DNA from: an uncultured Oscillospiraceae bacterium | Lineage (GTDB): Bacteria > Bacillota > Clostridia > Oscillospirales > Acutalibacteraceae | Reading direction: 5' to 3' | Assembly: GCA_949295415.1 (NCBI GenBank) | Contig: CASFLA010000055.1 | Location: 1-46,101, forward strand | DNA: 46,101 bases | Shown here: in pieces, positions 322 to 523 of the stretch | Position numbering within the stretch: position 1 is the first letter of the stretch | How the letters are laid out: every line of letters starts with the position of its first letter | The notes under the pieces: model-generated | Databases searched by the model: none | What the model was told of the DNA's origin: nothing | Seen by the model: only the letters and a program-made list of their open reading frames with translations | Position numbers and translations under genes: made by a program

Positions 322-523
322 AGTTATATTCCGACTTTGTCGGAGTGATATTTTTGATAAATCAAAAGTGATATTAAAACCTTGCGGTTTTAGTGATATT
401 TTATTCGCCCTAAACTCGCAAAGCGAATATAACTTCGGGCTCAGCCCAAATATAACTGCGAAGCAATATAACTCGCCGCAAGGCGAATAAAACTGGGGTT
501 GTGTCCTTAACGGATACAACCCC
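322..523. repeat. Array of hairpins separated by a 9-nt linker
   Basis: Eight copies of one 9-nt linker alternate with eight short, sequence-unrelated hairpins. Linkers: AGTTATATT at 322-330; AGTGATATT at 344-352, 367-375 and 392-400; then the reverse-complement form AATATAACT at 426-434, 449-457 and 465-473, and AATAAAACT at 486-494. Hairpin arms: 331-335/339-343, 352-358/361-367, 376-381/386-391, 403-408/423-428, 437-440/444-447, 457-459/463-465, 473-477/482-486 and 495-506/512-523. The linker flips orientation mid-array, so the array as a whole is roughly palindromic. Two stems close on a GNRA-type tetraloop on one strand or the other. It sits directly upstream of the gene remnant at 179-274. 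Confidence 0.8.
495..523 (-). terminator. Probable terminator of prs
   Basis: A 12-bp stem (495-506 pairing with 512-523, one G-U) lies 21 nt past the prs stop codon. On the minus strand it is followed by AGTTTTATT, a modest T-tract. It is also the last hairpin of the linker array, so it may serve both. Confidence 0.5.

Follow-up and report, generated by a model that had tools for sequence, protein, structure and literature searches.

We analyzed a linker-hairpin array at positions 322-523 of a 46,101-base stretch of DNA (hereafter the window) from an uncultured Oscillospiraceae bacterium, and propose that it constitutes the noncoding, conserved portion of a small element resembling a transposon. 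In this reading, to which we assign a probability of about 60%, a protein of the PF05635 family would recognize its own linker-flanked hairpins, the complex would be copied or moved, and copies lacking the gene would be mobilized in trans. The proposal draws on the fixed plan of the element, the covariation of its stems, its association with PF05635 genes, the co-inheritance of linker and protein, its location at transcription terminators, and orthologous sites that are empty. The window copy itself is a degenerate member, a relic with a broken gene. These elements form one class with the RNA named Gut-1 (RF01706), and the joining of Gut-1, PF05635, and terminators in one element class is new.

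Organization of the Array

All seven exact AGTKATATT linkers in the window are confined to 322-473 (four on the plus strand and three on the minus strand); the expectation is 1.13, and none of 100 shuffles reached this count. Their orientation inverts between 400 and 426, which confirms the mid-array flip described in the original prediction, an earlier annotation of this DNA. That annotation counted eight linkers, of which the eighth (AATAAAACT, 486-494) is degenerate because it also serves as the 5' strand of a long-range helix, P1.

The whole element lies on the minus strand. It begins with a terminal hairpin (GGGGTTGTATCCGTTAAGGACACAACCCC, 523-495), whose tip type, TAAGGA, is shared with other copies, followed by linker F1 merged with the 5' strand of P1 (AGTTTTATTCGCC, 482-494). 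Arm A (426-485) continues with hairpin hp1 (474-485), linker F2 (465-473), hp2 (458-464), F3 (449-457), hp3 (435-448), and F4 (426-434), its linkers reading AGTTATATT. The center (399-425) holds hairpin hp4 (415-425) and the 3' strand of P1 (GGCGAATAAAA, 399-409). Arm B (322-400) contains R1 (392-400), hp5 (376-391), R2 (367-375), hp6 (353-366), R3 (344-352), hp7 (331-343), and R4 (322-330), with linkers reading AATATMACT. The variable units are palindromes of about 7-17 nt in an inverted 4+4 arrangement. Directly past arm B lies a promoter-like sequence (294-322; -35 TTAAAA at 317-322, spacer of 17, and -10 TATAAT at 294-299), and then the remnant of a gene for a PF05635 protein (206-274; 23S rRNA intervening-sequence protein, or four-helix bundle). 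The minus-strand array folds strongly (z = -7.15 against dinucleotide shuffles), and the predicted fold consists of the terminal hairpin, a roughly 15-pair helix that closes arm A as a multibranch, and the three hairpins of arm B. The terminal hairpin at the terminator, the minus-strand gene remnant, and the relation to Gut-1 were omitted from the original prediction.

The genome of origin (1.4 Mb in 84 contigs) contains a dozen dispersed DNA relatives of the array. Within the order, an exact linker pair at hairpin spacing was found in 74 of 295 genomes (the backward control was near zero), and the hp2 signature was present in 78 of 394. The suggested search of related Clostridia for the linker at hairpin spacing has therefore yielded many further loci; neither a lack of such loci nor a loss of palindromy in the stems, the two outcomes named beforehand as evidence against the earlier interpretation, was found. 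We parsed 179 copies, of which 151 are non-redundant, and 102 of the latter have exactly four inverted linkers. Spacing is nearly constant, at about 20-21/16/20-23 in arm A and 22-25 in arm B. The array is therefore a fixed unit of 4+4 design, not an open-ended one, and its plan is a terminal hairpin, four linkers, a center, and four inverted linkers, with P1 closing one half.

Stem Covariation and Long-Range Pairing

The linkers are constant and the palindromes variable, as originally described: paired stems persist while their sequence changes. Within elements, the stem arms pair at 98.7% for hp3, 91% for hp5, 95% for hp6, and 92% for hp7, and this falls to 46-59% when arms are exchanged between elements. 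Each of these hairpins has 12-24 distinct 5' arms. A consensus fold of 12 diverse arm B sequences contains nine pairs, every one of which shows double changes. At the linker edges, T9-A1 switch jointly to G-C, and the position next to the edge does not vary, being T-G in arm A and C-A in arm B.

Helix P1 (TATTCGCC/GGCGAATA) joins 399-409 with 482-492 in the window. Its variable flanking pair is Watson-Crick in 142 of the 151 elements (A/T in 63, T/A in 53, and C/G in 26; nine are others). The earlier statement that the hairpins share no sequence is not quite accurate, as TATTCGCC, a 5' strand, can pair with either of two GGCG sequences, one in the local hairpin and one in the center. Because this CGCC strand has two partners, two folds compete. 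A cruciform in which the linkers of both halves pair had also been suggested. We rejected this structure, since the variable linker base shows no covariation between the arms (nested pairs, p = 0.2-0.5); the long-range pairing that is present is P1, not linker with linker.

On the strand reading AATATMACT, the non-Watson-Crick pairs of distinct arm B hairpins are biased toward G-T (27, vs. 4 A-C; p = 3e-5), whereas those of arm A are not (6 G-T vs. 12 A-C; arm B vs. arm A, Fisher 3e-4). Held-out elements alone gave 6:1 in arm B and 3:5 in arm A, which is the same direction but not significant. Selection therefore seems to act on arm B as a folded single strand with this polarity; on arm A it seems either not to act in this way or to act on the other strand. 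The bias argues against purely double-stranded recognition and disfavors an array of strand-neutral DNA palindromes only; it does not tell RNA from single-stranded DNA.

Association With PF05635 Genes

In full-length copies (L081, L083, L084, L073, and L075), a promoter, a ribosome site, and a gene of 116-120 codons lie directly past arm B. The promoter of L081 (TTGAAA-17-TATAAT) has the same arrangement as that of the window. The encoded proteins match PF05635 (97.2 bits vs. a cut-off of 33.8) and TIGR02436; the nearest solved structure by sequence, that of a relative, is 2rld, which has five chains. In the window, this gene is reduced to an ATG and 23 codons (MADSILRDTAKEFAKKIVFLCRD, 274-206).

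A scan of species genomes with these proteins recovered 80 loci, nearly all in uncultured gut or rumen Clostridia, including locus L193 of Ruminococcus bromii 5AMG. We built a tree of 80 proteins (78 different) and called an array where at least three linkers of one type occurred within 330 bp upstream. By this definition, 76 of the 80 have an array; when the four proteins located by way of their arrays are excluded, the count is 72 of 76. The linker is AGTKATATT in 53 of these, GTTATGA in 19, and AGCTAAAT in two, one of which (L227) has a perfect 4+4 arrangement; two other types occur once each. Proteins associated with GTTATGA, together with the four array-less proteins, form one supported clade (99/94). 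When linker types were mapped on the protein tree, eight changes were required, compared with 25 for shuffled labels, and none of 200 shuffles was as low. Because linker type follows the PF05635 clade, a protein that reads the linkers, as had been proposed earlier, is plausible from these sequence comparisons.

The only intact PF05635 gene found in the genome of origin (G000:C44, L078) lies by an array that shares the tip hairpin, TCCGTAAGGA, and has a different linker, AACATCATT/AACGATGTT. Extra genes (encoding a GNAT acetyltransferase, a methyltransferase-like protein, and an ion-channel-like protein) lie directly past the array or the PF05635 gene in L064, L085, L161, and L162 and are possibly cargo. 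Among a phylum-wide sample, L260 has its PF05635 gene within apparent 23S rRNA sequence, which is the classical situation of an intervening sequence (IVS).

Relationship to Gut-1 RNA

The 2010 description of Gut-1 presents it as a noncoding RNA known only from human gut sequences and not cis-regulatory, and Weinberg et al. (2010) termed it "certainly RNA" (PMC2864571). At relaxed thresholds, the Rfam model matches both arms of the window on opposite strands: arm B at 321-404 on the plus strand (36.9 bits, E = 2.2e-5) and arm A at 495-422 on the minus strand (31.7 bits, E = 4.5e-4), both below the gathering threshold of 50. Both arms align across model positions 1-77, and it is the linker that differs. 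A relative, L083, exceeds the threshold with 51.6 and 52.1 bits. Above threshold, Gut-1 occurs in 52 of 147 genomes of the order, and at the E-value used there are up to 28 copies per genome.

Canonical Gut-1 loci with the linker GTGAAAT (L363, L366, and L367) have a second inverted arm and their own P1 (AAATCCACCC/GGGTGGATTTA); Gut-1 thus represents a single arm of an element that has two. Two of the Gut-1 loci examined (L379 and L380) have a PF05635 gene of yet another lineage past arm B. One arm of our element corresponds to Gut-1 in that both have three short hairpins of free sequence between constant linkers, which in Gut-1 are 7 nt long (GUGAAAU). They differ in that the Rfam model covers 77 nt, a single arm on a single strand; the window linker is AGTKATATT, and its score is under the gathering cut-off; and the full element adds the second inverted arm, the terminal hairpin, and the gene. 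Among the papers searched, we found none connecting PF05635 with hairpin arrays or with Gut-1. The link to PF05635 gives Gut-1, an orphan since 2010, a context and a testable partner protein.

Location at Terminators and Signs of Mobility

Many copies directly follow a tRNA or another gene and have their own terminator-like hairpin. This hairpin is the same in L363, L366, and L367, which come from different genomes and follow different tRNAs, and it is therefore part of the element. Other copies, with a shorter terminal hairpin, are placed within the loop of a host terminator. The halves of a host terminator flank the element in 21 of 93 cases, vs. 1.3% of cross pairs, and the observed mean lay above 5000 permutations; the reverse complement of the host sequence preceding the element recurs about 130-270 bp past the array, often with a T run. 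A right-side copy of the terminal hairpin was found in seven of 93 (0.8% in cross pairs). In the window, the 5' half of the intrinsic terminator of prs precedes the element (AAAAAGCGATGCG; 524-539, AAAAAGCGATGCGTTA on the minus strand); the other half has no exact match elsewhere and would fall past the contig end. Three genomes of the same genus have an ordinary, uninterrupted short-loop terminator after prs and no element, which makes this an empty site.

Two further arrangements bear on mobility. In L091, a type A element is nested in an array element with a further linker family (AACTTCACT/AGTGAAGTT), and L366 consists of three tandem elements with two linker types. Because of the terminator location, the empty prs sites, the nesting, and the tandems, mobility appears to be the economical reading of these sequences; no insertion event was observed.

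Several individual loci show other features at their ends. In L019 (G000:C76:3101-3147), the terminal hairpin AGGGGTTGTGTCCTTAACGGATACAACCCCT stands alone, without an array, in the loop of a perfect terminator (ACACGGTGGGT..ACCCACCGTGTTTTT), possibly as a solo end left from excision or recombination. Type B elements, with the linker GTTATGA, often follow guaA (L206-L238), and their junction hairpin extends over the final codons of that gene (21 bp in L238), which looks as though an inverted copy of the gene end had been made. Target duplications were considered as an explanation for direct repeats close to tRNA-adjacent copies. This interpretation was weakened for L104, where the repeat is the conserved right end of the elements; L100 may have such a duplication. 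A phage origin was rejected, as only two viral contigs carry the signature, and so was a defense system, as there was no PADLOC match.

Proposed Mechanism and Alternative Explanations

The complete element runs from the terminal hairpin through arm A, the center, arm B, the promoter, and the PF05635 gene to a right end, measuring about 0.35 kb without the gene and about 0.9 kb with it. It is found at gene 3' ends, adjoining or within intrinsic terminators. The stems are retained as structure and the linkers of 7-9 nt as sequence. The PF05635 protein may recognize the linker-flanked hairpins of its own family. PF05635 has a homolog in Avd, the accessory protein of diversity-generating retroelements (DGRs) (PMC10053308), and DGR homing requires a hairpin at the target, in which it is the structure of the stem that matters rather than its sequence (PMC3240598); together with the 23S rRNA IVSs discussed below, these give support by analogy for such recognition and for the array as the signal for movement. 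The complex of protein and array would then be what is copied or moved, and gene-less copies could be mobilized in trans. We infer the binding of protein to linker, the role of the array as the mobility signal, single-stranded DNA or RNA as the moving form, and the transposition chemistry. A linker-reading protein appears likely, and a linker-paired cruciform does not. A broader generalization is more tentative, and we consider it rather less probable than not: each PF05635 lineage of this clade would read its own 7-9 nt linker between sequence-free hairpins folded from one strand and, with host enzymes only, would drive recombinase-less elements aimed at terminators, the Gut-1 RNA being the footprint of one lineage.

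Several observations weigh against the proposed transposon-like element. The co-inheritance of linker and protein is also expected from mere joint travel. An intact matching gene is absent from most copies, among them every AGTKATATT copy seen in the genome of origin, and in the loci examined more distant PF05635 genes do not have such arrays (for about half of these loci the reading frame was not located). Recombinase, transposase, and reverse transcriptase (RT) genes are neither encoded nor recurrently adjacent; in the 3-kb flanks of the 80 loci, the only recurrent neighbor is guaA, beside type B elements. There is no clear target duplication, and element ends and target duplications are not firmly defined.

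Among the alternatives, Gut-1-type arrays could be expressed trans-acting noncoding RNAs, as the Rfam reading holds, with dispersal and the PF05635 gene being secondary. The published assessment of Gut-1 as "certainly RNA" (PMC2864571), the wobble bias in arm B, and the strong fold agree with this, but the two window arms match the model on opposite strands, the wobble bias is missing in arm A, and there are up to 28 copies per genome. In addition, the consensus promoter sits after the array, so the mRNA of the PF05635 protein excludes it, and we consider this explanation unlikely. It is still harder to sustain a retroelement in which an Avd-like PF05635 protein and an RT acting in trans copy the array RNA into hairpin targets, in the manner of DGR or group IIC intron homing. 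The homology to Avd (PMC10053308), a weak NF033474 match in one member protein, and the hairpin requirement of DGR homing, as well as terminator targeting that recalls group IIC introns (PMC3240598), would fit. However, the RT family PF00078 is unmatched in the genome of origin (97% complete) and in G179 (99% complete, with 22 hp2 matches). It is also unmatched in 11 of 16 array-rich genomes (the genome of origin and 10 others), vs. nine of 16 comparison genomes chosen for lacking arrays, and no RT recurs in the flanks of the 80 loci. An RT in trans was rejected on the grounds that most array-rich genomes lack a PF00078 match.

The arrays might instead be passive palindromic repeats, similar to terminators or to repetitive extragenic palindromes (REPs) and bacterial interspersed mosaic elements (BIMEs), that act at the 3' ends of mRNAs or in the structure of the nucleoid and are spread by a host transposase. 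The copies are indeed intergenic, located at gene 3' ends, palindromic, and multicopy, and a terminal hairpin with a T run could itself end transcription. Yet what is conserved is the linkers rather than the palindromes, and neither the fixed 4+4 plan, the association with one protein clade (76/80), nor the covariation of P1 is in line with such repeats, which makes this explanation improbable to much the same degree as the retroelement. The least probable of the alternatives, in our estimation, is integration of the units at the 3' ends of tRNA genes and guaA by a site-specific recombinase of the tyrosine or serine type, supplied by the host or by another element, with the linkers as arm-type binding sites. 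Many copies directly follow tRNA 3' ends, GTTATGA elements often follow guaA, and directly repeated linkers look like arm sites; but no integrase gene recurs near the loci, the targets are diverse (terminator loops after prs and after many other genes are among them), and arm sites have no need of covarying hairpins.

Comparison With Known Systems

REP/BIME sequences are multicopy intergenic palindromes with inverted partners, and the REP-associated tyrosine transposase (RAYT) is a Y1 transposase. The elements described here are likewise multicopy intergenic palindromes with inverted partners, but the linker is conserved instead of the palindrome, stems vary between elements, and PF05635 takes the place of the Y1 transposase. 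Clustered regularly interspaced short palindromic repeats (CRISPR) have direct repeats with non-palindromic spacers, whereas our variable units are palindromic and the array is an inverted 4+4. Group IIC introns are also sited at intrinsic terminators, but we found no Rfam match to a group II core and no RT in the genome of origin.

In 23S rRNA, IVSs with a PF05635 gene are bordered by complementary sequence and replace the loops of rRNA helices; their protein has been suspected of helping them to move (PMC4990558). The same authors assign no known function to S23/IVP proteins. Both IVSs and our elements are small and selfish-looking, with a PF05635 gene, complementary borders, and a host hairpin loop as their site (PMC4990558). 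The host hairpin here is a transcription terminator (that of prs in the window) rather than an rRNA helix, the copy number is high, and the IVS description (PMC4990558) is without a two-armed linker-hairpin array. DGRs share the PF05635-type accessory protein and a hairpin of which structure rather than stem sequence matters (PMC3240598), but neither an RT nor a template/variable repeat pair was seen here. A habit of acting on hairpins by structure, not sequence, may be common to the PF05635/Avd family in rRNA IVSs, in DGRs, and in the elements described here. In uncultured Clostridia of the gut and rumen, such array elements are very common; they cause breaks in assemblies and occupy terminators.

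Neighboring Transposable Element

Positions 1-209 of the window, on the minus strand, are occupied by an unrelated, hairpin-rich miniature inverted-repeat transposable element (MITE) of about 195 bp with the ends ATAATGATTATC .. ATAGTCATTAT. It is inserted in the PF05635 gene, which it breaks after codon 23, and is not part of the array element. Several copies, 98-99% identical, occur at contig ends of the same genome. One contig (C79, L273) starts with the same MITE and continues with codons 24 onward of such a gene, which is probably the other half of the PF05635 gene in the window.
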